This document shows positions 6,601 to 30,121 of a stretch of 34,619 nucleotides of DNA, one piece after another. Under the pieces are notes generated by a model. The model was not told the DNA's origin. It saw only the letters and a list, made by a program, of their open reading frames with translations, and did no database searches. Both the position numbers and the translations under genes were made by a program. The stretch is from Nocardia ninae NBRC 108245 (GTDB taxonomy: Bacteria > Actinomycetota > Actinomycetes > Mycobacteriales > Mycobacteriaceae), in contig NZ_BJXA01000087.1 in the NCBI RefSeq assembly GCF_007990755.1, positions 1 to 34,619 on the forward strand, read 5' to 3'. How positions within the stretch are numbered: position 1 is the stretch's first letter; each line of letters starts with the position of its first letter.

Positions 6601-7914
6601 GTGTTACTTCGACAGCTCGAGCCCCGCACTGCTCGCACCACCGCCGAGGTGATCAAGTTCGCACTCTGGCCCATCGCGGTCATGACCGTGCTGAACCGGG
6701 TTTTCATCAAGGCTGTCAATGGTTTCATCACCGACGACTTCCGGCCGGTCTACCAGGCCTCGCTCGACTTTCTCAACGGGCGGCCGGTGTACACGGCGAA
6801 CTTCGATTCGGTCGATCCGCACTACCTCTACTACCCGAGCGGCACACTGCTCATCGCGCCGGTGGCGTGGGTGCACGACTACGAGAAGGCCCGCTGGCTG
6901 TTCATCCTCCTGAACGCCGCCGCGATCATCCTCGCCTGGTATCTGCTGCTGCGGCTGTTCCGGTTCACCGTGAATTCCGTTGTCGCGCCGGTGTTGCTGC
7001 TGGCGATGTTCATGTCGGAGACAGTGACCAACACGCTGGTGTTCACGAACGTCAACGGGTGCATCCTGCTGGCCGAGCTGCTGTTCCTGCATCTGCTGCT
7101 CAAACGGCGAGACCTGTGGGCAGGTCTCGCACTCGGATTGAGTCTCGCGGTGAAACCGACGCTGGCACCGCTGCTATTGATCGCACTGGTTCGCGGGCAG
7201 TGGAAGGTGTTCATCACCGCGCTGGGTGTGCCGATCGTGCTGACCGCGATCGCCTGGCCGATGTCGAAGGACCCGGAGAAGTTCCTCAGCCACACCGCGC
7301 CGTACCTGTTCGAGACCCGCGACTACTTCAACAGTTCCATCCCCGGCAACGGCGAGTACTACGGGCTGCCGCCGTGGCTGGTCTGGGGCATCCGGGTCGG
7401 CATGGGCATCCTGGTCGCCATCTCGCTGTGGCTGCTGTACCGCTACTACCGCGACGACGAGCTGTTCTTCGTGTGCACCGCGTCCGGTGTGCTGCTCGCC
7501 GGGTCGTTCCTGCTGCTGTCGCTGGGGCAGATGTACTACTCGATGATGCTGTTCCCGTTCCTGATGACGGTGGTGCTGCGCAATTCGGTAATGCGCAACT
7601 GGCCGGCATGGTTGGCGGTATTCGGGTTCATGAGTTACGACAAGTGGCTGTCCGAGCGACCCGGCTGGCAGCACTGGGGTCGCGACCTCGAGTATCTGCG
7701 CATCACCTTCGGGTGGGGTTTGCTGGTGATCGTGATCTTCTGCGTGCTCGGTGAGCGGTATCTGGCCGCGAAGCGGGAAGGGCGTCTGGCGTTCGGCATC
7801 GACCCCACCTGGTTCAAGCCTGTGCCGAGCGGTGCGCACGCCACCACGACTGATTCGCCCAGCTCAGCCAATGGCTCCGCGACGACGGTGGCGAAACCTA
7901 TTAGCGTGGAGTGA
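6601..7914 (+). CDS. aftC: Arabinofuranosyltransferase AftC (GT87 family)
   Basis: Polytopic membrane glycosyltransferase of 437 residues, family GT87/DUF2029. AftC adds alpha-1,3-arabinofuranosyl branches from decaprenyl-phosphoryl-arabinose to arabinogalactan and lipoarabinomannan at the outer face of the membrane. Ten or more hydrophobic helices are visible. Blocks such as NGFITDDFRPVYQ, VDPHYLYYPSGTLL, TNTLVFTNVNGCILL and RDYFNSSIPGNGEYYGLP closely match the M. tuberculosis AftC sequence as I remember it, and its neighbours match too. The Asp pair in ITDDF is the probable catalytic site by GT-C family logic. The stop codon overlaps the msrB start by one base. The gene is strong evidence for an arabinogalactan-containing cell wall. 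Confidence 0.9.
   Translation: MLLRQLEPRTARTTAEVIKFALWPIAVMTVLNRVFIKAVNGFITDDFRPVYQASLDFLNGRPVYTANFDSVDPHYLYYPSGTLLIAPVAWVHDYEKARWLFILLNAAAIILAWYLLLRLFRFTVNSVVAPVLLLAMFMSETVTNTLVFTNVNGCILLAELLFLHLLLKRRDLWAGLALGLSLAVKPTLAPLLLIALVRGQWKVFITALGVPIVLTAIAWPMSKDPEKFLSHTAPYLFETRDYFNSSIPGNGEYYGLPPWLVWGIRVGMGILVAISLWLLYRYYRDDELFFVCTASGVLLAGSFLLLSLGQMYYSMMLFPFLMTVVLRNSVMRNWPAWLAVFGFMSYDKWLSERPGWQHWGRDLEYLRITFGWGLLVIVIFCVLGERYLAAKREGRLAFGIDPTWFKPVPSGAHATTTDSPSSANGSATTVAKPISVE
7902..7907 (+). promoter_or_regulatory. -10 hexamer for leaderless msrB, inside the aftC tail
   Basis: TAGCGT followed by 6 nt and ATG 7914. It lies within the last codons of aftC, so msrB may have its own promoter besides read-through from aftC. 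Confidence 0.5.
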
Positions 7915-9138: not shown

Positions 9139-9965
9139 GCCCCCATCGTGCCACCCGCAAGATTGACTCTGCCCTGCGGTCCTGGTCACGTTCCGCCGCT
9201 GGGTGCAGGCGAGCCAACGCCTGCTGGTAGCCCGGCATCCGCTGCTGAAATGGCTACAGCGCAGCCAGCCCGCAGCTATCGCCGGTGGTGGGCTCACGTC
9301 GAATCGCCGGTCGCGCTTCGTCGCTCGCGGCAGCGATGCCGCAACGCTCGAGGTGAAGCTAGCAAGCTGCCGATGCAGTGCGCTGGACAGGCTCGGGGAC
9401 GAGATAACTTGCGGGCGTACAGATGCGATGCGCGGCGGCATGGCCTGACCGACGCAAGCAGGGCTATTGCCTGACACGACGCGGACAGTGATGCGGGCGG
9501 CGCCGGTGATGCAGGCGGCGCCGGTGATGCCGGCGAGGATACCCGTCCCCTGCGCGAGACAGCCGCGAGTACGAATCAGCCTGCGGCAGTCCGACAGCGG
9601 CGTTGCGGGAGGCGGTCCCGGCAGCGACGCCGACCCCGTTACGATGGCGACATAGGCGGGGACGCCTGTCCGTGCGGGCGACAGCCGCGAGTACGAGTCA
9701 GGTTGCGGCAGCAGCGATGCGGCGCGTGCAGCATTGCCTGCGGCGGCGCAGACAGCGTAGGCGCTGCCAGCGGAGACACCCGCGCTCTGCGGGAGACAGC
9801 GTCGAGCACGAGTCGGCTTGCCGCAGTGGCGATACGGCGGGGCAGCGGCATCGCCCGACGCGATGCAGGCGGCGTGGGCGATGCAGGTGGGGACGCCGAT
9901 GCCGTGCCGATGGCGACACAGGCGGGGACGCCCCGCGCCGTGCGGAAGCCAGCCGCGAGTACGAG
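9139..9965. repeat. Long hemQ-hemY gap with a decayed tandem array related to the hemY 3' end
   Basis: 827 bp without a convincing gene. From about 9467 to 9965 it consists of degenerate units with a shared core, GCGAGTACGAGTCAGG or a variant, then TTGCGGCAG. Cores begin at 9561, 9681, 9796 and 9949, spacings 120, 115 and 153 bp. Between cores recur GGCGACACAGGCGGGGACGC-like blocks. The last unit runs into the hemY coding end, where the same block encodes (minus strand) [12 protein letters not shown]. The minus-strand reading of the gap keeps echoes of that tail ([22 protein letters not shown]). The simplest reading is repeated duplication of the hemY 3' end followed by decay. From 9139 to about 9460 I see nothing recognisable. 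Confidence 0.7.
9490..9535. repeat. Short 18-bp tandem repeat in the hemQ-hemY gap
   Basis: Two full copies of an 18-bp unit, GATGCGGGCGGCGCCGGT then GATGCAGGCGGCGCCGGT, followed by a partial third copy. It sits at the hemQ-side end of the larger degenerate array and may be one of its local expansions. Confidence 0.7.
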
Positions 9966-14375: not shown

Positions 14376-15668
14376 ATGTCCGTACCCGACGAATCCGAAC
14401 CCACCGGCGCGCCACCCCTGCTCGCGCCCGTGGATGGCGTGCCTCCGGTACTGGACACCGCCGCTGAAATCGCCGCGGCCGCCGCGCGTCTCGCCGCGGG
14501 CACCGGCCCGCTCGCCGTCGATGCCGAACGTGCTTCGGGTTTCCGGTATTCGGCGCGCGCCTACCTGATTCAGCTGCGCCGCGCGGGTGCGGGCACGTTC
14601 CTCATCGATCCGATTCCGGTCGCCGACTCGCTCACGCCGCTGGCCGACGCGATCAACGACCTCGAGTGGGTATTGCACTCGGCGGACCAGGATCTGCCCG
14701 GTCTGGCCGAACTCGGCCTGCGCCCGCAGCGGCTGTTCGATACCGAATTGGGCGGTCGGCTGGCCGGTTTCGAACGCGTCGGCCTGGCCGCGATGGTGGA
14801 GAACCTGCTGGGTCACGCGCTGCGCAAGGGGCACGGCGCGGCCGACTGGTCGACCAGGCCGTTGCCGGCCGAATGGCTGAACTATGCGGCACTGGATGTC
14901 GAACTGCTGCTGGAGTTGCGCGACGCGGTCGCCGCGGAGCTGGAAGCGCAAGGCAAAACCGATTGGGCAGCACAGGAATTCGAGCACGTCCGGACCACCG
15001 AACCGGCGCCGCCGAAAGCGGACCGGTGGCGTCGCACCTCGGGCATCCACAACCTGCGCCGGACCCGACAGCTCGCCGTGGTGCGCGAGCTATGGACTAC
15101 CCGGGACGCGCTAGCTCGCGGCCGCGACGTGGCGCCCGCCCGGATCCTGCCCGACGCCGCGATCATCGCGGCCGTCACCGCCGAACCGAAAACCATCGCG
15201 CAACTGCGCGCATTGCCGGTGTTCGGCGGTCCGCGCCAGCGGCGCTACTCCCGCGAGTGGCTGGCCGCCATCGACCGCGGCCGGACCATGCCCGACAGCG
15301 ACCTACCGCCGCTGACCCAGCCGTTCGACGGACCGCCCCCGGTCAACCGCTGGGAACGCCGCGACCCGGCCGCCGCCGCCCGGTTGACCCGCGCGCGCAC
15401 CGCGATGGGTGAGCTGTCCACCGAGCACGCGATCCCGGTGGAGAACCTGCTCTCCCCCGACCTCGTCCGCCGCTTGTGCTGGGACGGGCTGCCCGATTAC
15501 GACCACGTCCCGGACTCGCCCGACGACCTGGCCAGCGCCATCGACGGCTTCCTCAAGTCCGGCGGGGCCAGGCCCTGGCAGCGCGAACTGGCCGTCCCGC
15601 GCCTGACCGAGGCGCTGACGCCGGAACCCGCCGAGCAGGTCACACCGCCGCCTCCTGCGTCTGCTTGA
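14376..15668 (+). CDS. rnd: Ribonuclease D (DEDD 3'-5' exoribonuclease with HRDC domain)
   Basis: 430-residue 3'-5' exoribonuclease of the RNase D family, acting in tRNA and stable-RNA 3' processing. The metal-binding acidic residues are visible: exo I Asp49/Glu51 in LAVDAERASGF, exo II Asp106 in LHSADQDLPGL, exo III Tyr170/Asp174 in NYAALDVELLLEL. An HRDC-type helical domain follows at about residues 208-290 and a second helical region runs to the C-terminus. Its last 29 bp overlap the end of the convergent SRPBCC gene. Orthologous in place to Rv2681. Confidence 0.9.
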   Translation: MSVPDESEPTGAPPLLAPVDGVPPVLDTAAEIAAAAARLAAGTGPLAVDAERASGFRYSARAYLIQLRRAGAGTFLIDPIPVADSLTPLADAINDLEWVLHSADQDLPGLAELGLRPQRLFDTELGGRLAGFERVGLAAMVENLLGHALRKGHGAADWSTRPLPAEWLNYAALDVELLLELRDAVAAELEAQGKTDWAAQEFEHVRTTEPAPPKADRWRRTSGIHNLRRTRQLAVVRELWTTRDALARGRDVAPARILPDAAIIAAVTAEPKTIAQLRALPVFGGPRQRRYSREWLAAIDRGRTMPDSDLPPLTQPFDGPPPVNRWERRDPAAAARLTRARTAMGELSTEHAIPVENLLSPDLVRRLCWDGLPDYDHVPDSPDDLASAIDGFLKSGGARPWQRELAVPRLTEALTPEPAEQVTPPPPASA

Positions 15669-17283: not shown

Positions 17284-18012
17284 ATGTCTACCTTGATCGA
17301 ACGTCTCGATGCCATCGATACCGCGCCGGGCGTTGCCGAACTGCGCGCCCACTCCTACGATCTGCTGCGCCTGAAAGACGGTGCCTCCGTGGTCGATGTC
17401 GGCTGCGGGTCCGGTCGCGCGGTCGCCGAATTAGCCGAGCGAGGTGCGGTGCCGATCGGTATCGATCCGAGCGAGCAGATGCTGGATATCGCGCGGACAC
17501 GGTGGCCCGCACTGGAGTTCCGTCGAGCAACCGCCGAAGCACTACCGCTACCGGATGAAGCGGTATCCGGCTACCGTGCCGACAAGGTTTTCCATGAGAT
17601 CGCGGACCCCGCGGCGGCATTGGGGGAAGCTCGCCGGGTCCTGGCTCCGGGCGGCCGCATCGTCCTGCTGGGTCAGGATTGGGACGCCATCATCATCGAC
17701 TCCGCCGATCCGGAGACCACCCGCGCCCTCGTGCACGCTCGCGCGGACACGATCACCAACCCCCGTTCCGCTCGCGCCTACCGAAATATGCTGCTGGCCA
17801 GCGGGTTCCATGACGTCACCGTGGAAGCACGCACACCGATCATCACCGACGAGCTGATGCTGCCGATGCTCACCGGTCTGGTCGCGGCCGCCGGCGACAA
17901 GCTAGACCGGGCACGGGCCGAAGCTTGGCTCGACGAGCAGACCACCCAGGCGAGAACAGGTCGCCTGATGGTGGCGATCCCACTGTTCATCGCCGCAGCC
18001 TCCCGGCCGTGA
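17284..18012 (+). CDS. Class I SAM-dependent methyltransferase
   Basis: 242-residue Rossmann-fold methyltransferase of the UbiE/Methyltransf_11 group. Motif I VVDVGCGSGRAVAEL is at about residues 36-50, acidic motif II GIDPSEQMLDIAR follows, and motif IV/post-I segments (EAVSGYRADKVFHEIADP, ARRVLAPGGRIVLLGQDWD) are in order. Such enzymes methylate small molecules; the substrate is unknown. ATG 17284 is favoured because the MerR-like operator covers the upstream in-frame ATG 17254. The gene is divergent from the MerR regulator, which probably activates it in response to a small molecule that the enzyme may modify (inferred). Confidence 0.88.
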   Translation: MSTLIERLDAIDTAPGVAELRAHSYDLLRLKDGASVVDVGCGSGRAVAELAERGAVPIGIDPSEQMLDIARTRWPALEFRRATAEALPLPDEAVSGYRADKVFHEIADPAAALGEARRVLAPGGRIVLLGQDWDAIIIDSADPETTRALVHARADTITNPRSARAYRNMLLASGFHDVTVEARTPIITDELMLPMLTGLVAAAGDKLDRARAEAWLDEQTTQARTGRLMVAIPLFIAAASRP

Positions 18013-18015
18013 CAG

Positions 18016-18062
18016 CGGGCATGAGAGCGGGCACTCTCGCACTTTCGCGCCACCATGTCCCG
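18016..18062. repeat. Solo copy of the 48-bp stem-loop repeat
   Basis: A 47-bp element beginning CGGGCATGAGAGCGGGC and ending GCGCCACCATGTCCCG, 3 bp after the methyltransferase stop and 35 bp before the PhzF-like start. It matches the units of the 25711-26359 array over its whole length, including the CACTTTCGCGCCACCA interior and CATGTCCCG terminal arm. It shows that the element is dispersed, not only tandem. Confidence 0.8.
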
Positions 18063-18097
18063 TTGATCATGAAGTGCCCTACTGGTTGGCTGAGTGT

Positions 18098-18742
18098 GTG
18101 ACTGAGTACGACGTACTGCGCGTCTTCTGTGACCCCGACGGTCGATACGGCAACGAGCTCGGCGTCGTCCGCGATGGATCCGCCGTTCCCGAAGTGGCCG
18201 AGCGCCAAGCTTTCGCCAGGAAGTTGGGTTTCAGCGAGACCGTATTCGTCGACGACCCGGTGCGTGGCGCCATCGACATCTACACGCCGACCGCACGGCT
18301 GCCCTTCGCCGGACATCCGTGCGTGGGCGTGGCCTGGCTGCTGGACGTACCCAGCTTGGTCACGACTGCCGGCGTAGTCGGCACCCGGTCCGACGGGGAG
18401 TTCATTTGGATCCAGGCGCCCGCCGAATGGGCGCCCCCGCGCACCCTTCGCCAATACGGTTCCGCGGCAGAAGTGGACGGTCTGCCGGTCCCGGAGCCGG
18501 GCGAGTGGATCTACGCGTGGGCCTGGCAGGACGAGTCCGCCGGGAAGATCAGGGCCCGCGCCTTCCCCGGCCGCGGCGACGGTATCGAGGAGGACGAGGC
18601 GACAGGCGCGGCGGCACTGCTGCTCACGTCGAGACTCGGCCGCCCCCTGCATATTTCGCAGGGACGCGGGTCGCAGATCGCGACAGCCCCGCGACCGAAC
18701 GACCTCATCGAAGTGGGTGGGCGCGTCAGAAGGGCTAGGTAG
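18098..18742 (+). CDS. PhzF family isomerase-like protein
   Basis: 214-residue PhzF-family protein (diaminopimelate-epimerase fold). Recognisable features are the N-terminal strand and GNELGVV loop, the catalytic-Glu block GFSETVFVDD, the FAGHP motif in ARLPFAGHPCVGVAWLL, and the second-lobe motif DEATGAAALLL. PhzF itself isomerises dihydro-hydroxyanthranilate in phenazine synthesis, but most relatives are stand-alone and of unknown substrate. No phenazine genes are near, so a phenazine role is not supported. It is shorter than typical PhzF (about 280), with a compact middle. GTG 18098 gives the family N-terminus; an upstream in-frame GTG at 18074 is possible. Confidence 0.8.
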   Translation: MTEYDVLRVFCDPDGRYGNELGVVRDGSAVPEVAERQAFARKLGFSETVFVDDPVRGAIDIYTPTARLPFAGHPCVGVAWLLDVPSLVTTAGVVGTRSDGEFIWIQAPAEWAPPRTLRQYGSAAEVDGLPVPEPGEWIYAWAWQDESAGKIRARAFPGRGDGIEEDEATGAAALLLTSRLGRPLHISQGRGSQIATAPRPNDLIEVGGRVRRAR

Positions 18743-23543: not shown

Positions 23544-23840
23544 TCAGCGGTGATCGAGCCCCTTGATCAGCATGCTCACGGTTTCGGCGCCGGCGTGCCT
23601 GTCCTTCGAAATCTCCAGATACTCCGGCGATTCCGCCCAGGCCCGGAACGCGGGCTCGTCGGGGAACGACATCAGCACCACCTTCTCCCGGTCCGTGCTG
23701 CCCTCGATGAGCTGCGGTGACTCGTCGGCGGCGAGCAGCGTGCCTGCGTAGCGGGTGAAGATGTCGAGGAAACGCGCCTGGTACCGGTCGTAGGCGTCCC
23801 GATCGGTGAACTTCAGTTGCGCGATCACATACACGGTCAT
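23544..23840 (-). CDS. DUF1330 (ferredoxin-like dimeric alpha/beta-barrel) protein
   Basis: 98-residue small protein beginning MTVYVIAQLKFTDRDAYDRY, the standard DUF1330 opening, with KVVLMSFPDEPAFRAWAESPEY matching the family's second strand and helix. These proteins form dimeric alpha/beta barrels; no reaction is established. ATG 23840 is the family start; the frame continues upstream without conserved sequence. Confidence 0.88.
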   Translation of the reverse strand: MTVYVIAQLKFTDRDAYDRYQARFLDIFTRYAGTLLAADESPQLIEGSTDREKVVLMSFPDEPAFRAWAESPEYLEISKDRHAGAETVSMLIKGLDHR

Positions 23841-24890: not shown

Positions 24891-25694
24891 ATGTCGTTCG
24901 TGCTCATCGACACACCGCGACCGCACGTCGCCCTGGTCACGCTCAATCGGCCGGATCGCATGAATGCCATGGCCTTCGATGTGATGATCCCGTTGCGCGA
25001 GGCATTGGAAGAGGTCAGCGCGGACAATGACATTCGGGTTGTCGTGCTCACCGGCGCGGGCGCGGGGTTCTGTTCCGGCGCCGATTTGCAGAGCGCGGGC
25101 AAGGTGCCCAACGTCGAGGGGCTCACCGTCACCAGCGTCGCGCGCCGATCGATGGACCTGCTCAACGACGTGATGATCACCCTTCGGCGAATGAACCAAC
25201 CGGTGATCGGCGCGATCAATGGCGCTGCCATCGGTGGCGGATTCTGTCTCAGCGTCGCCACCGACATCCGAATCGCGGCCGAGGAAGCCTACTTTCGCGC
25301 CGCAGGCATCAACAACGGCCTCACCTCCGCCGAACTAGGCATCAGTTACCTGCTGCCCCGCGCCATCGGCGCCTCCCGTGCCTTCGAGATCATGCTGTCC
25401 GGCCGCGACGTCGACGCCACCGAAGCCGAGCGCATCGGCCTCGTCTCGCGCACCGTTCCCGCGGCCGAACTCCTGGAAACCTGCTACGACCTGGCCGACC
25501 GCATCATCAGCTTCAGCCGCGTCGGCACCGAACTCACCAAACGCATGCTCTGGAGTGGCATGGAAGCAGGCAGCTTCGAATCCCACATGCAGCACGAGGG
25601 AATGGCCCAACTCTACGTCCGCCTCACCACCACCAACTTCGACGAAGCCATCCGCGCCCGCCGAGACCGCCGCCCCCCGATCTACGACGACTAA
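24891..25694 (+). CDS. echA12: Enoyl-CoA hydratase/isomerase family protein (EchA12-like)
   Basis: 267-residue crotonase-fold protein. Oxyanion-hole segments are CSGADLQSAG (about 61-70) and AINGAAIGGGFC (about 108-119). The whole sequence, especially RMNAMAFDVMIPL, AAGINNGLTSAELGISYLLPRAIG and LTKRMLWSGMEAGS, closely matches M. tuberculosis EchA12 as I remember it. Of the two catalytic glutamates of enoyl-CoA hydratase, the second is at Glu148 but the first is replaced by Cys119. It may therefore be an isomerase or have another crotonase activity on acyl-CoA. No other fatty-acid gene is adjacent. The downstream repeat array begins about 17 bp after the stop. Confidence 0.85.
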   Translation: MSFVLIDTPRPHVALVTLNRPDRMNAMAFDVMIPLREALEEVSADNDIRVVVLTGAGAGFCSGADLQSAGKVPNVEGLTVTSVARRSMDLLNDVMITLRRMNQPVIGAINGAAIGGGFCLSVATDIRIAAEEAYFRAAGINNGLTSAELGISYLLPRAIGASRAFEIMLSGRDVDATEAERIGLVSRTVPAAELLETCYDLADRIISFSRVGTELTKRMLWSGMEAGSFESHMQHEGMAQLYVRLTTTNFDEAIRARRDRRPPIYDD

Positions 25695-25710: not shown

Positions 25711-26359
25711 ACGCTCATCCCGCCGCTATGTCCCAAGTCGGCGAACATCCCACGCCGAACGGGACATAACGACGGCCCCACTCGCACTCCCCCGCCGACA
25801 TGTCCCGAGACAACGAACATCCCACGCCGAACGGGACATGGTGGCTGAACCAATCGTCTTCTCCGCCAACATGTTCCGCAGCGTCGCCCATACCGAGCGA
25901 CAACACGCGCCAGACCCAGCGTGAGAAACCTAGTCCACCTCGCAGCGCTCAGCCACCGGCAGACCGACCCGAGCGGGACATGACAGCGGCCCCACTCGCA
26001 CTCCCCCGCCACCACGTCCCGAGGCGGCAAACATCCCGCGCCAAACGGGACATGACAGCGGCCGCACTCGCACTTCCGCGCCACCACGTCCCGAGGCAGC
26101 GAACATTCTGTGCCGAGCGGGACATGATGGCTGGACCACTCGCGTTCGCCGCCAACGCATCCCACTCGACGAGTGCAGCAGGCCCCCGGCCGATCATCGG
26201 AACGGACTCGGCGTCATCGTTGCTGGGCGGGACGTGACGGCGGGGCCACGCGCGCTTTCCCGCCACTATGCCCCGCAGAGCCGCACATTCCGGTAGCGGA
26301 CCGTGCTGGGCGGGACGTGGCGGCGGGGATACCTGCTTTCTGCCGCCGCCGTGTCCCCG
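25711..26359. repeat. Array of 48-bp stem-loop repeats with 72-bp period
   Basis: About eight units fill the space between convergent echA12 and the RNA methyltransferase gene. Each full unit is about 48 bp, with arms CGGGACATG (or CGGGACGTG) and CATGTCCCG (or CACGTCCCG) around a conserved interior (GACAGCGGCC, CACTCGCACT, CCGCCACCA). Units are joined by a 24-bp spacer like GAGGCAGCGAACATCCCGCG. Full units: 25760-25807, 25832-25878, 25974-26021, 26046-26093, 26118-26164 (degenerate right arm), 26228-26275 and 26311-26359; only a right half is seen at about 25720-25735. Three steps are exactly 72 bp (25760/25832, 25974/26046, 26046/26118); others are longer, with decayed sequence between. No gene is supportable in this 685-bp stretch. 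Confidence 0.88.
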
Positions 26360-26371
26360 GTCGACCACTGA

Positions 26372-26388
26372 CCCCAGTGTCACTGGGG
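26372..26388. promoter_or_regulatory. Perfect palindrome at the end of the RNA methyltransferase gene
   Basis: CCCCAGTG T CACTGGGG, 8-bp arms around one base, overlapping the stop codon at 26380-26382. It may act as part of a terminator or a protein site; the one-base centre makes a simple RNA hairpin open up to a smaller stem. Confidence 0.45.
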
Positions 26389-28092
26389 AGCTGGGCGCTC
26401 CAGGAGGGCGATGCATTCGACGTGGTGGGTGCCGGGGAAGGCGTCGAAGGCGCGTAGGTCGGTGAGGTGGTAGCCGGCGGCTTGGTAGAGGCCCAGGTCT
26501 CGGGCGAAAGCGGCTGGGTCGCAGCCGATGTGGACGATGCGGAGGGGGCCGGTGGTGGTGATGGCGGTGATGACGTCTTTGCCCGCGCCGGCTCGTGGGG
26601 GGTCGAGCACGATGACGTCGGGGGATGCGCCGTCGACGCGATCGGTGACCCAGCGTTCCACCCGTTGGGCGTGCAGGTCGACCCAGGGCAGGTCGCGCAG
26701 CGCGGCGGCGGCGTCGGCGACTGCGGGGCGGGATGATTCGACCGCGAGGACCGCGCCGGTCTGGCCTACCTGCTCGGCCAGCCGGGCGGCGAAAACACCG
26801 GCGCCGCTGTACAAATCCCAGGCCAAGCCGCCGGGACGCAAGCCGGACCACTCGGCAACGAGATCCGAATAGCACTGTGCCGCACCGTGATGCGCCTGCC
26901 AGAAACCCGTTGCCGAGACCTCCCACCGGCGCTCCGCCACGTACTCGACCGCCCGCCCGGTACCGGAGATCAACCACTCCTCGCGCGCCGCATGTGTGGC
27001 CGCCCGCCGAGCCGACGCACTGCGCCGCTCCCCGGCCTGCGGTGTCTCCAACCGCCCGTCCGCGTCGTACCGCTCCGCCCCACGCTCGCCAGCACCGCGC
27101 GAACCCGCGCTCCAGACGCCACCGATCTCACCTGGGCGACGACGGTGGCCGCGGCCGGTGACACCTGACACCTCGTCGCCGCGCACTTCGCTACCCGGCT
27201 TGCCGCCTGGGCGGCGACGGTTGTCCCGCTCGACTCCGCCGCGCGCATCAGCACCACGCCCGGCGTCGACTCGATCGTCGCGTCCGCCCGGGTTGTGAGA
27301 CTTCCGTCCACGCTCGTCATCCCCGCGCGAGTTACCGGGTTCGGCGCCCGGACGTCGGCGATCACCGCGCTCGGCACGATCACCTCGTTCGGCACGACCA
27401 CGACGGTCTCGACCGCGCCCACGGCGTTCCTCACCGGGCTCGACTCGCTGCCATTCACCGGAGCGCGACCGCCGCTCCCCCTCGACCGCGGGCGCCAACT
27501 CGATGATGTGCCGCACCCCGTCACCATCGACGGCGATCACCAAATCCGCACCGGGCGTCCACAATCGATCGGCCACCCCGTCGAGCGCCCCCGAAACCGG
27601 CTGCGGACAGCGCAGATCCGTGATCACCTCGGTGCTTCGGTATCGATGAACTCCGGCTCGCCCCTCGGCGTCGACGGCCAACCGAATCCGGGTACGCCAC
27701 CCACCGGTGGTGTCACCGGCGCCGGCGATCGGTTCGACAATGATCTCCCGTTCGATCCCCGCAAGCCTGCGCAGCTGTTCGGCAACCACCGAAGCCTTCA
27801 GCGCCCGTTGCGCTTTCGGCGTGGCATAGGAGAAGTCGCAGCAGCCCGCACCACCCGGCCCGGAGACGGGGCAGCTGGCGGGAACGCGGTCCGGTGACGG
27901 CTCGAGGATCTCCACCGCGTCGGCACGGCAGAACGACCCACCGCGGTCCTCGGTGACACGCACCCGCACCAGTTCACCCGGCAGCCCGTGCCGGACGAAC
28001 ACCACCCGGCCTTCGTGCCTGCCCACACAGAACCCACCGTGTCCGGGCGGTCCGAGCCGGACCTCGAAAGTCGTGTCGCGCCAATCAGTCAT
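26380..28092 (-). CDS. TrmA/RlmD-type RNA (uracil-5-) methyltransferase with large RG-rich insert
   Basis: 570-residue SAM-dependent m5U methyltransferase, against about 400 in mycobacterial homologues. An N-terminal TRAM-like domain (about 5-63) is followed by a Cys set resembling the [4Fe-4S] site (Cys74, Cys84, Cys85, Cys162). The C-terminal catalytic domain carries motif I WDLYSGAGVFA (425-435), DPPRAGAGK (497-505), the catalytic Cys524 in HIGCDPAAFARD, and HVEC with the general-base Glu559. Residues about 203-370 are a low-complexity Arg/Gly/Glu/Asp-rich insert with three RRRPG blocks (about 245, 291 and 317). ATG 28092 starts the conserved N-terminus. It follows the APC permease gene by 40 bp, as I recall for Rv2690c-Rv2689c. 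Target RNA is unknown. Confidence 0.9.
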   Translation of the reverse strand: MTDWRDTTFEVRLGPPGHGGFCVGRHEGRVVFVRHGLPGELVRVRVTEDRGGSFCRADAVEILEPSPDRVPASCPVSGPGGAGCCDFSYATPKAQRALKASVVAEQLRRLAGIEREIIVEPIAGAGDTTGGWRTRIRLAVDAEGRAGVHRYRSTEVITDLRCPQPVSGALDGVADRLWTPGADLVIAVDGDGVRHIIELAPAVEGERRSRSGEWQRVEPGEERRGRGRDRRGRAERGDRAERGDRRRPGAEPGNSRGDDERGRKSHNPGGRDDRVDAGRGADARGGVERDNRRRPGGKPGSEVRGDEVSGVTGRGHRRRPGEIGGVWSAGSRGAGERGAERYDADGRLETPQAGERRSASARRAATHAAREEWLISGTGRAVEYVAERRWEVSATGFWQAHHGAAQCYSDLVAEWSGLRPGGLAWDLYSGAGVFAARLAEQVGQTGAVLAVESSRPAVADAAAALRDLPWVDLHAQRVERWVTDRVDGASPDVIVLDPPRAGAGKDVITAITTTGPLRIVHIGCDPAAFARDLGLYQAAGYHLTDLRAFDAFPGTHHVECIALLERPAPQ

Positions 28093-28132
28093 GCCCACGC
28101 CTCGTCTGCACTCGTCTCCCGGAAGGCAACTC

Positions 28133-30121
28133 TCATGTGCGGTCGTCGTAACCGCGGCGCACCGCACCGGGCGCGTTCACCATGCCCGGCGTCTTCGCCC
28201 GCGTCGACGAGGTCAACTGCCACGGCACGCTGGTCACCATCACCCCTGGCTCGAAAAGCAAACGGCCCTTGAGTCGCAACGCACTCTGGTTGTGCAGTAT
28301 CTGTTCCCACCAGTGCCCCACCACGTATTCGGGGATGAACACGGTCACCACGTCGCGCGGCGAATCCTTGCGCACCCGCTTGACGTAGTCGAGCACGGGC
28401 TTGGTGATTTCGCGGTAGGGCGACTCGATCACCTTGAGCGGCACGGTGACGTCGCTCTTCTCCCATTCACGCACGAGCGCCCTGGTGTCGGCCTCGTCGA
28501 CGTTCACGGTGATCGCTTCCAGCGTGTCCGGCCGGGTGGCACGGGCATAGGCCAGCGCGCGCCGCGTCGGCAGATGCAGCTTGGACACCAGCACGATCGA
28601 GTGCGAGCGGCTGGGCAGCACGCCGTCCCACTCCTGCTCGTCCAGCTCGCGCGACACCGAATCGTAGTGCCTGCGAATCATTTTCATCACGATGAAGATC
28701 GCCACCATGGTGGCGATGGCGATGTAGGCGCCCGCGAAGAACTTGGTGATCAGCACGATGATCAGCACGGTGCCGGTCGCGCTGAGGCCGATCGCGTTGA
28801 TCACCCTGGACCGCTTCATCCGCGACCGTTGCGTCGGATCGGTTTCGGTGCGCAGCAGCCGGGTCCAGTGCCGCAGCATGCCGGTCTGGCTGAGCACGAA
28901 CGAGACGAACACACCGACGATGTACAGCTGGATCAGCTTGGTGACCTCGGCCCCGAACAGCACCACGAACGCGATCGCCGCACCCGAGAGGAACAGGATG
29001 CCGTTGCTGAACGCCAGCCGGTCACCGCGGGTGTGCAGCTGCCGGGGCAGGTAGCGGTCCTGCGCCAGAATCGAACCCAGCACCGGGAAGCCGTTGAAGG
29101 CGGTGTTCGCGGCGAGCACGAGGATCAGCGCGGTCACCGTCGTGATGAAGAAGAACCCGATCGGGAACCCGTGGAACACCGTCTCGGCGAGCTGCGCGAT
29201 CAAGGTCTTCTGGTGGTAGCCGGCGGGCGCGCCGATCAGATCGTCGGTGTCGTGCGCGTACACGACGCCGATCTTCTGGGCCAGGATGATGATGCCCATC
29301 AGCAACACGATCGCGAAGGTGCCGAGCATCAGCAGTGTGGTGGCGGCGTTGCGCGACTTCGGCTTACGGAACGCGGGCACACCGTTGCTGATCGCCTCGA
29401 CACCGGTCAGCGCGGCACAGCCGGAGGAGAACGAGCGGGCGATCAAAAAGGCGAAGGCGAGTCCGTAGAGATGCTCGTCCTCCGCCTTCAGCCCGAAACC
29501 GGCCGATTCGGCCTGTAGATCGTCGCCGAGGAAGAAGATGCGGAACAGTCCCCAGCCGAGCATGACGAACATGCCGACGATGAACGCGTAGGTCGGGATG
29601 GCGAACGTGGTGCCCGACTCGCGGATGCCGCGGAGGTTGATCGCGGTGAGCAAGGCGATCGCGACCACGGCGAACAGCACCTTGTGCGTGGCGACGAACG
29701 GAATCGCCGAGCCGATATTGGACGCGGCCGAAGAGATCGAGACGGCCACCGTGAGCACATAGTCGACCAGCAGCGCGCTCCCGACCGTCAGACCGGCATT
29801 GGGGCCGAGGTTCGTCGTCGCAACCTCGTAGTCACCGCCGCCGGACGGGTAGGCGTGCACGTTTTGCCGATAGCTTGCTACGACCACCGCCATGACGAAC
29901 GCGACGGCCAAACCGACCCACGGCGCGTAGACGTAGGCGGAGATACCCGCGGCGGAGAGCACGAGGAAGATTTCTTCCGGCGCGTAGGCGACCGAGGACA
30001 TGGCATCGGAGGCGAACACCGGGAGGGCGATGCGCTTCGGCAGCAGGGTATGGCCAAGCGAATCACTACGGAAAGGCCTGCCCAGCAGCATTCGTTTCGC
30101 TGCCGTCGTCAACTTGGACAC
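28133..30121 (-). CDS. APC-superfamily amino-acid permease
   Basis: 662-residue membrane transporter of the APC superfamily. Twelve or so helices occupy residues about 40-470, starting with ALPVFASDAMSSVAYAPEEIF (the conserved unwound helix 1). A cytosolic tail of about 190 residues follows, a layout typical of KUP/APC-like proteins in this family; the tail looks like a USP-like alpha/beta fold (HSIVLVSKLHLPTRRALAYA). Substrate unknown; amino acid or potassium are both possible given the adjacent Trk genes. GTG 30121 is preferred: TATGCT lies 7 nt upstream and contains the alternative ATG 30133, which would then not be transcribed. Confidence 0.88.
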   Translation of the reverse strand: MSKLTTAAKRMLLGRPFRSDSLGHTLLPKRIALPVFASDAMSSVAYAPEEIFLVLSAAGISAYVYAPWVGLAVAFVMAVVVASYRQNVHAYPSGGGDYEVATTNLGPNAGLTVGSALLVDYVLTVAVSISSAASNIGSAIPFVATHKVLFAVVAIALLTAINLRGIRESGTTFAIPTYAFIVGMFVMLGWGLFRIFFLGDDLQAESAGFGLKAEDEHLYGLAFAFLIARSFSSGCAALTGVEAISNGVPAFRKPKSRNAATTLLMLGTFAIVLLMGIIILAQKIGVVYAHDTDDLIGAPAGYHQKTLIAQLAETVFHGFPIGFFFITTVTALILVLAANTAFNGFPVLGSILAQDRYLPRQLHTRGDRLAFSNGILFLSGAAIAFVVLFGAEVTKLIQLYIVGVFVSFVLSQTGMLRHWTRLLRTETDPTQRSRMKRSRVINAIGLSATGTVLIIVLITKFFAGAYIAIATMVAIFIVMKMIRRHYDSVSRELDEQEWDGVLPSRSHSIVLVSKLHLPTRRALAYARATRPDTLEAITVNVDEADTRALVREWEKSDVTVPLKVIESPYREITKPVLDYVKRVRKDSPRDVVTVFIPEYVVGHWWEQILHNQSALRLKGRLLFEPGVMVTSVPWQLTSSTRAKTPGMVNAPGAVRRGYDDRT

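Follow-up and report, generated by a model that had tools for sequence, protein, structure and literature searches.

Repeat array between two convergent genes

The window, a stretch of 34,619 nucleotides from Nocardia ninae NBRC 108245, carries an enoyl-CoA hydratase/isomerase (ECH) family gene and a TrmA-like methyltransferase gene that face each other, and the 685 bp between their stops are occupied by an array of a 49-bp core (AnCGGGACATGacGGCG..CCCACTCGCACTTcgCCGCCaCCATGTCCC) present as seven full copies and one right half-copy (Table 1). The stop of the methyltransferase gene lies at 26380–26382 and its start is uncertain (28005 or 28167). Start-to-start steps of the seven full units were 72, 142, 72, 72, 110 and 83 bp, and Tandem Repeats Finder reported a period of 72 at 25969–26143 (score 239). 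The repeat array placed at 25711–26359 by the initial annotation is therefore real, being recovered as a tandem period, as nhmmer units and as matches to a covariance model of the family (R1, built from an alignment of 76 units taken from 26 regions). The annotation was right about the repeated unit, with its tally of about eight copies becoming seven full units plus one half; exact 72-bp steps were confirmed for three of the six steps among full units, although these three are not consecutive.

The five best units in the window matched R1 with E-values of 1.1e-9 to 1.4e-8 (the same units being among the 76 used to build the model), and model-free BLAST produced 52 further matches in the N. 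ninae genome outside the window; together these results exclude a chance origin of the units. A long Arg/Gly/Glu-rich insert was observed at residues ~235–375 of the methyltransferase, with most relatives aligning around it and matches falling mostly in two pieces. An 18-bp tandem repeat at 27359–27401 falls within the same gene, and other short tandem repeats of 18 and 21 bp were seen in the window at 7386–7421, 9488–9535 and 14470–14517.

Table 1 Features of the repeat family and flanking genes in the window
Feature	Position	Strand	Evidence
Second window copy, single; outer right arm GTTGATCATGAA, left arm cut short; core 18014–18062	18014–18074	+	R1 E 1.7e-4
Enoyl-CoA hydratase/isomerase family gene (ECH_1); convergent, to the left of the array	24891–25694	+	Pfam PF00378 E 4.9e-44
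Decayed unit, right half, CCCGCCGCTATGTCCC	25719–25734	+	Sequence; GTCCC end exactly 72 bp upstream of the GTCCC end in the 25758 unit
Repeat unit 1, 49-bp core	25758–25806	+	nhmmer 38.2 bits; R1 E 1.3e-9
Repeat unit 2, 49-bp core, diverged	25830–25878	+	nhmmer 25.4 bits
Non-unit sequence, 93 bp, inside array; present in G087 array too	25879–25971		By eye
Repeat unit 3, 49-bp core	25972–26020	+	nhmmer 39.9 bits; R1 E 4.8e-9
Repeat unit 4, 49-bp core	26044–26092	+	nhmmer 40.9 bits; R1 E 1.1e-9
Repeat unit 5, core with small deletion	26116–26162	+	nhmmer 30.0 bits; R1 E 1.4e-8
Repeat unit 6, 49-bp core	26226–26274	+	nhmmer 33.6 bits; R1 E 1.9e-9
Repeat unit 7, 49-bp core	26309–26357	+	nhmmer 19.6 bits
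TrmA-like tRNA (uracil-5-)-methyltransferase family gene carrying a TRAM domain; convergent, to the right of the array	26380–28167	-	Pfam PF05958 E 1.9e-10; PF01938 E 3.8e-9

Dispersal of the family in Nocardia

N. ninae and a small number of related species carry the family in many dispersed copies, and among the genomes sampled it occurs almost exclusively in Nocardia. Counting copies by BLAST, as the initial annotation had proposed, gave 53 matches to the array region, those of the window counted, in the N. ninae genome (204 contigs, 9.70 Mb); 20 relatives together yielded a single weak match. With R1, whose per-genome counts are lower bounds, at least 150 copies were found at no fewer than 58 sites of the same genome; among the matches listed, 34 sites held one copy and 24 held two or more. 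Three other species carried at least 150 (G087), at least 112 (G119) and at least 149 copies (G129, which is Nocardia colli CICC 11023; the family pattern was also found in one contig of this strain in a pattern scan of named genomes). Across the genus, R1 matched 52 of 148 sampled genomes, own included (E ≤ 0.01), and copy-rich species were few, with six genomes reaching at least 31 matches each. Order-wide, three of 249 genomes were matched (E ≤ 0.001), two of them in Nocardia and one, weakly, outside it (5.4e-4). With BLAST and covariance-model copies spread across genome and genus, the proposal of a MITE- or REP-like dispersed family was borne out in kind.

Copies from different loci were at most 0.89–0.92 identical in three genomes (a between-loci value of 1.0 in G129 being the join of two contig ends), so that no recent burst is apparent among the copies examined. 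No copy was found in a plasmid collection with the single query used (window 25946–26170), one G119 element used as a query had no match in a phage collection, and Rfam returned 0 matches at gathering score in the window.

On contig C1 of G087, with dnaA at 0.40 Mb, the first 1.1 Mb was free of the 82 listed copies (of at least 150), and 33 of the 35 sites formed by these 82 lay within 2.2–7.4 Mb. Counted over the same 82 listed copies, sites tended to lie away from the beginning of the contig (24 of 35, p = 0.04); the corresponding figure in G119, 31 of 52 sites, was not significant.

The same junction in related species

Unit number at the orthologous ECH/methyltransferase junction varies between species, with seven units in N. 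ninae, 11 in G087 (gap 918 bp, ECH protein 98% identical) and nine in N. colli (gap ~1.48 kb). By eye, the ~210-bp gap of G084 contains two or three units in diverged form, one of which the model scores (10.8 bits), and the 28-bp gap of G119 contains a half-element-like stretch (by eye). The facing stops lie 4 bp apart, with the repeat absent, in G046, G059, G007 and G049. Among eight relatives with the ECH gene in the compared locus, three had a 4-bp junction and five had 64 to 450 bp of repeat-free sequence or a gene; no R1 match at E ≤ 0.01 was present in the loci of 29 relatives.

In G052, G060 and G009, a relative of the window gene at 23544–23840 (-) sits where the window has the array. 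These relatives were 52–80% identical to that gene (loci L127, L134 and L117), the one at L134 being in pieces. Several further arrays look common to N. ninae and G087, judged by their spacers.

Placement at gene ends

Junctions were classified with gene calls from a home-made codon-usage caller. Of 80 junctions with a copy, 43 were convergent, 33 codirectional and four divergent, compared with 32, 127 and 51, respectively, of 210 junctions without one (chi-square p = 3e-11). The convergent 3′ ends named as the location of the array by the initial annotation are thus a favoured site of the family, 43/80 repeat junctions being convergent against 32/210 repeat-free ones. At codirectional junctions the repeat pointed with the genes at 20 sites and against them at 14.

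The simplest form of the element is a 62–70 bp palindrome at stop codons, and single copies are in the majority at the G119 loci examined. Seven of 18 convergent single copies in G119 lay within 10 bp of both stops (L062, L151, L152, L154, L156, L159 and L163); at L151, L152, L154 and L163, one gene extends 5 or 6 bp into the element end, where TGATCA offers a TGA. This TGATCA ends the single copy on both sides and so provides a TGA on each strand. Taken over the full 33 convergent single copies, 31 of 66 stop-to-element distances were ≤ 30 bp, with a median distance of 61 bp. U-tracts were nearly absent, TTTT occurring no more than 25 nt from the core at two of 136 single-copy ends, and for this reason a classical intrinsic terminator is unsupported despite the strong hairpin of the single copy.

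The second copy in the window follows the same placement, its core beginning 1 bp beyond the gene whose end is at 18012; N. colli also has a copy at this junction (by eye). When the G087 locus L191 was set against window positions 18014–18098, its single copy looked intact on both arms and the left-hand sequence differed, marking a synteny break.

Repeat-free gaps of ≤ 260 nt were also scanned for strong hairpins, which occurred in 39% of 28 convergent gaps, compared with 16% of 31 divergent gaps, 21% of 96 codirectional gaps and 18% of 201 coding controls. The excess at convergent junctions is weak support for a 3′-end role. At L177 in G008, orthologous to the L062 junction of G119, a different G+C-rich hairpin was found in place of the single copy (by eye), as if one putative 3′-end hairpin had replaced another.

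Arm pairing and folding of single copies and array units

Two types of single copy were recognised. The first, (CA)TGATCAACGGGACATG...CATGTCCCGTTGATCA(TG), measures 62 bp and usually has CA/TG added outside; the second has CG-ended outer arms (CGAAC...GTTCG). The loop sequence, CACTCGCAC, is reasonably well conserved, and this counts against a bare hairpin, for which it would be unnecessary. Pairing, spacing and conservation counts were made on matches with at most three mismatches in GGGAC/GTCCC, which kept 122 of 158 rows in N. ninae (G000), 49 of 50 in G119, 111 of 136 in G087 and 100 of 113 in G129. Copies were called single when no same-strand neighbour lay within 130 bp, and some of them sit in loose arrays. 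The loci of G087, G119 and G129 are best model or pattern matches and not a random choice, and the structure tests used copies found by a model built from the same family.

Among 68 single copies from four genomes, seven of 28 symmetric pairs were above shuffled values (p < 0.05), mostly in the outer arms. Pair 0–53 was G-C in 29 copies and C-G in 27 (observed 0.82 versus expected 0.48, p = 0.001), pairs -1/54 and -2/55 behaved in the same way, and 14/39 was likewise above shuffles. A matched double change of both arms, CGGCAC/GTGCCG, in which G to C in one arm has its counterpart in the other, occurred in several copies of G119 and G087. No more than two sub-families, and hence few events, may underlie the covariation of the outer arms. 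In 314 array units, three of 28 symmetric pairs exceeded shuffles at p < 0.05, and weakly; RNAalifold returned three pairs on array units, and no whole-structure measure rose above shuffles in the first 76 units (pairing 72.7%, shuffled mean 73.9%).

Folding, for which at most 60 copies per genome were used, gave a similar picture. Single copies had mean z-scores of -5.2/-5.7 on the two strands in G119 (34 copies) and of approximately -5 on both strands in G129 (14 copies). Array units ranged overall between -1.3 and -2.7, with means of -1.3/-1.6 in a sample of 55 from the N. ninae genome; reverse-strand folds were slightly more stable in the arrays of N. ninae and G087.

Array units have lost arm complementarity that single copies keep. 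Since single copies covary in their outer arms and fold strongly, it is they, rather than the array, for which a 3′-end hairpin is plausible, and the RNA 3′-end structure considered in the initial annotation is accordingly retained for single copies and hardly for array units. Covariance analysis of the arms, the check proposed there, showed covariation in the outer arms of single copies, whereas the array units yielded the three pairs given above; the two observations on which the annotation had made an element identity depend, copies in relatives and covariation of the arms, were thus both obtained.

Spacing and probable local amplification of the arrays

Within arrays, spacers averaged 0.71 identity and cores 0.78 (31 loci, p = 0.018), whereas between loci the central spacer positions were mostly at 0.25–0.36, near the 0.30–0.33 of mismatched pairs. 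Spacers that are alike in one array and mostly unlike between loci indicate local amplification. The conserved spacer reported for the window is therefore conserved between neighbours there and is otherwise locus-specific; the same 0.71 identity bears out the earlier rejection of a CRISPR, as the spacers of one array are not unique. Core blocks, among them GGGAC, CCGCC and GTCCC, were more conserved between loci than the rest.

Compared with the array's spacer filler, left flanks were more similar than the 95% null in 33 of 92 runs; on the right this held for 23 of 92. The resemblance fits local duplication and proves no target duplication. Units at array ends and in array interiors were equally paired (0.565 versus 0.565, p = 0.82), which is not what upkeep of a single hairpin in each array would predict.

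Unit steps were exactly 72 bp in 119 of 197 cases, at 49 loci. Lesser modes occurred at 82–83 bp (19 steps) and 92–93 bp (5 steps), each approximately one helical turn more. Helical phasing reached p = 0.0098 against a smoothed null; with one value per locus the Rayleigh test gave p = 0.11 at 10.5 bp, the best period was 9.6 bp and several spacings fitted no turn. Reading the quantised spacing of 72, 82–83 and 92–93 bp as helical phasing is therefore suggestive only. The common 72-bp step reflects either descent from one tandem pair with a since-diverged spacer or something that measures the step.

Sites and boundaries of single copies

A search with the arm pattern in four genomes, allowing at most two mismatches, revealed no mobile parent. 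At 13 of 20 G119 sites both arms were present, 61–63 bp end to end, and at the other seven one arm was seen, its partner being decayed or beyond the mismatch tolerance (by eye). Inspection of these 20 sites by eye showed no parent insertion sequence. No clear target-site duplication emerged from 1092 combinations of boundary and length tried on 68 single copies, the best z of 4.2 at 4 bp carrying an underestimated error.

Interpretation

That a dispersed Nocardia palindrome family exists and that the window array arose from it by local amplification is very probable. Our best reading, to which we assign a probability of roughly 0.6, is a Nocardia-specific, REP/MITE-like palindrome of gene ends, locally amplified, whose single copy would form a two-way 3′-end hairpin. 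The palindrome would have reached gene ends by some mobile or copying process. Acting as a hairpin, a single copy would mark where transcripts from either side end, and its TGATCA termini also give each strand a TGA. A copy that lies at a stop codon and folds on both strands has the appearance expected of such a module, and REPs show a like bias in placement (PMC3733652). Slippage or unequal recombination could then have expanded some copies into 72-bp arrays, which would be largely a by-product. Because U-tracts are few, the loop is conserved and array ends are kept no better than interiors, the two-way 3′-end role, a prediction from sequence, is put forward tentatively, and a tolerated selfish repeat is to be weighed seriously beside it.

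The latter possibility, though somewhat doubtful, is the strongest of the rivals: the family would be MITE-like, selfish or neutral, and without function for the host; it would be found at convergent gene ends for the reason that insertion elsewhere (in genes or promoters) is harmful, and the hairpins would be a relic of the insertion mechanism. Purifying selection alone would produce the rarity at divergent junctions (4/80 versus 51/210), and the patchy copy number across the genus, the decay of array units and the preservation of end units no better than interior ones all agree with it. However, the double arm changes and the outer-arm covariation suggest that pairing mattered at least during spread, and no sign of a recent burst was seen, identity between loci being ≤ 0.89–0.92 in three genomes.

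It is unlikely that the arrays are phased binding sites for a protein (nucleoid, gyrase-like or repressor) with a spacing set by the DNA helix. A 72-bp step kept in 119 of 197 cases although spacers differ between loci, the 82–83 and 92–93 bp modes, the smoothed-null p-value of 0.0098 and the conservation of GGGAC, CCGCC and GTCCC above the rest between loci would all be expected of such sites. This reading is weakened by the per-locus phasing result (p = 0.11 at 10.5 bp, best period 9.6 bp, misfit spacings) and by cores that are barely better kept than spacers within arrays (0.78 versus 0.71); moreover, the 72-bp period could be inherited from one ancestral tandem pair. A more far-reaching scheme, which we consider distinctly improbable, would join both ideas in a stop-to-stop module: the palindrome would give convergent genes their stops and a two-way hairpin, and after amplification in helical phase (62 bp plus ~10.4 bp per step, giving 72, 82–83 and 92–93 bp) it would be read by a dedicated Nocardia DNA-binding protein, turning gene-end boundaries into chromosome-organising sites.

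A structured RNA repeated within the 3′ UTR that minus-strand transcription of the methyltransferase gene would produce, as the initial annotation envisaged, and having its G-U pairs under selection, has very little to recommend it. As stated there, the mismatches of two units, A·C on the + strand, do become G-U pairs in minus-strand RNA; reverse-strand folds are slightly stabler in the N. ninae and G087 arrays, and the lack of an Rfam match does not contradict a new RNA. The argument fails on the pairing of the units, which in 76 of them equals that of independent columns (72.7% versus a shuffled mean of 73.9%), on the mixed codirectional orientation (20 with the genes, 14 against) and on N. 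ninae array units that fold little better than shuffles (-1.3/-1.6). Selection for minus-strand G-U pairs was considered separately and rejected, as transitions favour neither strand consistently.

Movement by a RAYT (Y1) transposase, as for REP/BIME elements, is less probable still. The family is palindromic and intergenic with a convergent/codirectional bias, as described for REPs in PMC3733652, but its units are longer than the 20–40 bp given there. Y1_Tnp (PF01797) was absent from the six copy-rich genomes G000, G087, G129, G119, G084 and G035; it matched one of 13 genomes searched, G003, itself without an R1 match at E ≤ 0.01, and the search control gave matches in five of 14 known genomes. 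Finally, a tandem-repeat protein with 24-codon repeats of 72 bp can be dismissed, because unit steps break the frame (10 of 87 non-72 steps are multiples of three); long open frames do cross parts of the array on both strands, but the gene caller places no gene in the array and the cores are palindromic.

Nocardia gains a distinct set of elements at gene ends that can be traced, from gain through amplification to decay, at orthologous sites between species. This traceable history makes the family a natural experiment on terminator versus tolerated parasite versus binding site, and variable arrays could serve as typing markers.

Comparison with known repeat families

In the literature searched, outside which most subscription journals lie, we found no described palindromic repeat family of this type in Nocardia and no paper on REP/RAYT systems in actinobacteria. 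In the portions of the individual sources consulted, Nocardia goes without mention in PMC3733652 and PMC2267715, no mention was counted in PMC12306157, and PMC5217627 names the genus once, for PE/PPE proteins.

According to the sections of PMC3733652 consulted, REPs are short, high-copy, intergenic palindromes of 20–40 bp that lie downstream of coding regions, mostly at convergent or codirectional junctions. The Nocardia family resembles these REP/BIME elements as an extragenic palindrome found in high copy 3′ of genes, and differs from them in its size (62–70 bp versus 20–40 bp; PMC3733652, same sections). It also differs in forming head-to-tail 72-bp arrays and in lacking a RAYT in the six copy-rich genomes, and the GTAG/CGTC tag of REPs was not recognised in the element by eye. 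In common with MITEs, the element is small and non-coding, has inverted-repeat ends and occurs in many copies; unlike them, it showed neither a parent insertion sequence (by eye, 20 G119 sites) nor a clear target duplication.

The MIRUs of Supply and colleagues are reportedly mycobacterial dispersed intergenic units that form tandem arrays of varying copy number and are tied to stop codons. By description, the Nocardia family is like these MIRU/VNTR loci in unit size, in its dispersed intergenic position near stop codons and in arrays that vary in copy number. MIRUs are not known to be palindromic, and the palindromic cores of the Nocardia element set it apart from them by description.

To our knowledge, no DNA-uptake role of such sequences is known in Nocardia. 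In Haemophilus, inverted pairs of uptake sequences at gene ends act as terminators, as reported in the part of PMC5217627 consulted, and the Nocardia family is similar to these in being a repeated inverted sequence at gene ends. It differs from the Haemophilus pairs in that its arms are joined in one element, with hardly any U-tract and with a loop that is itself conserved.
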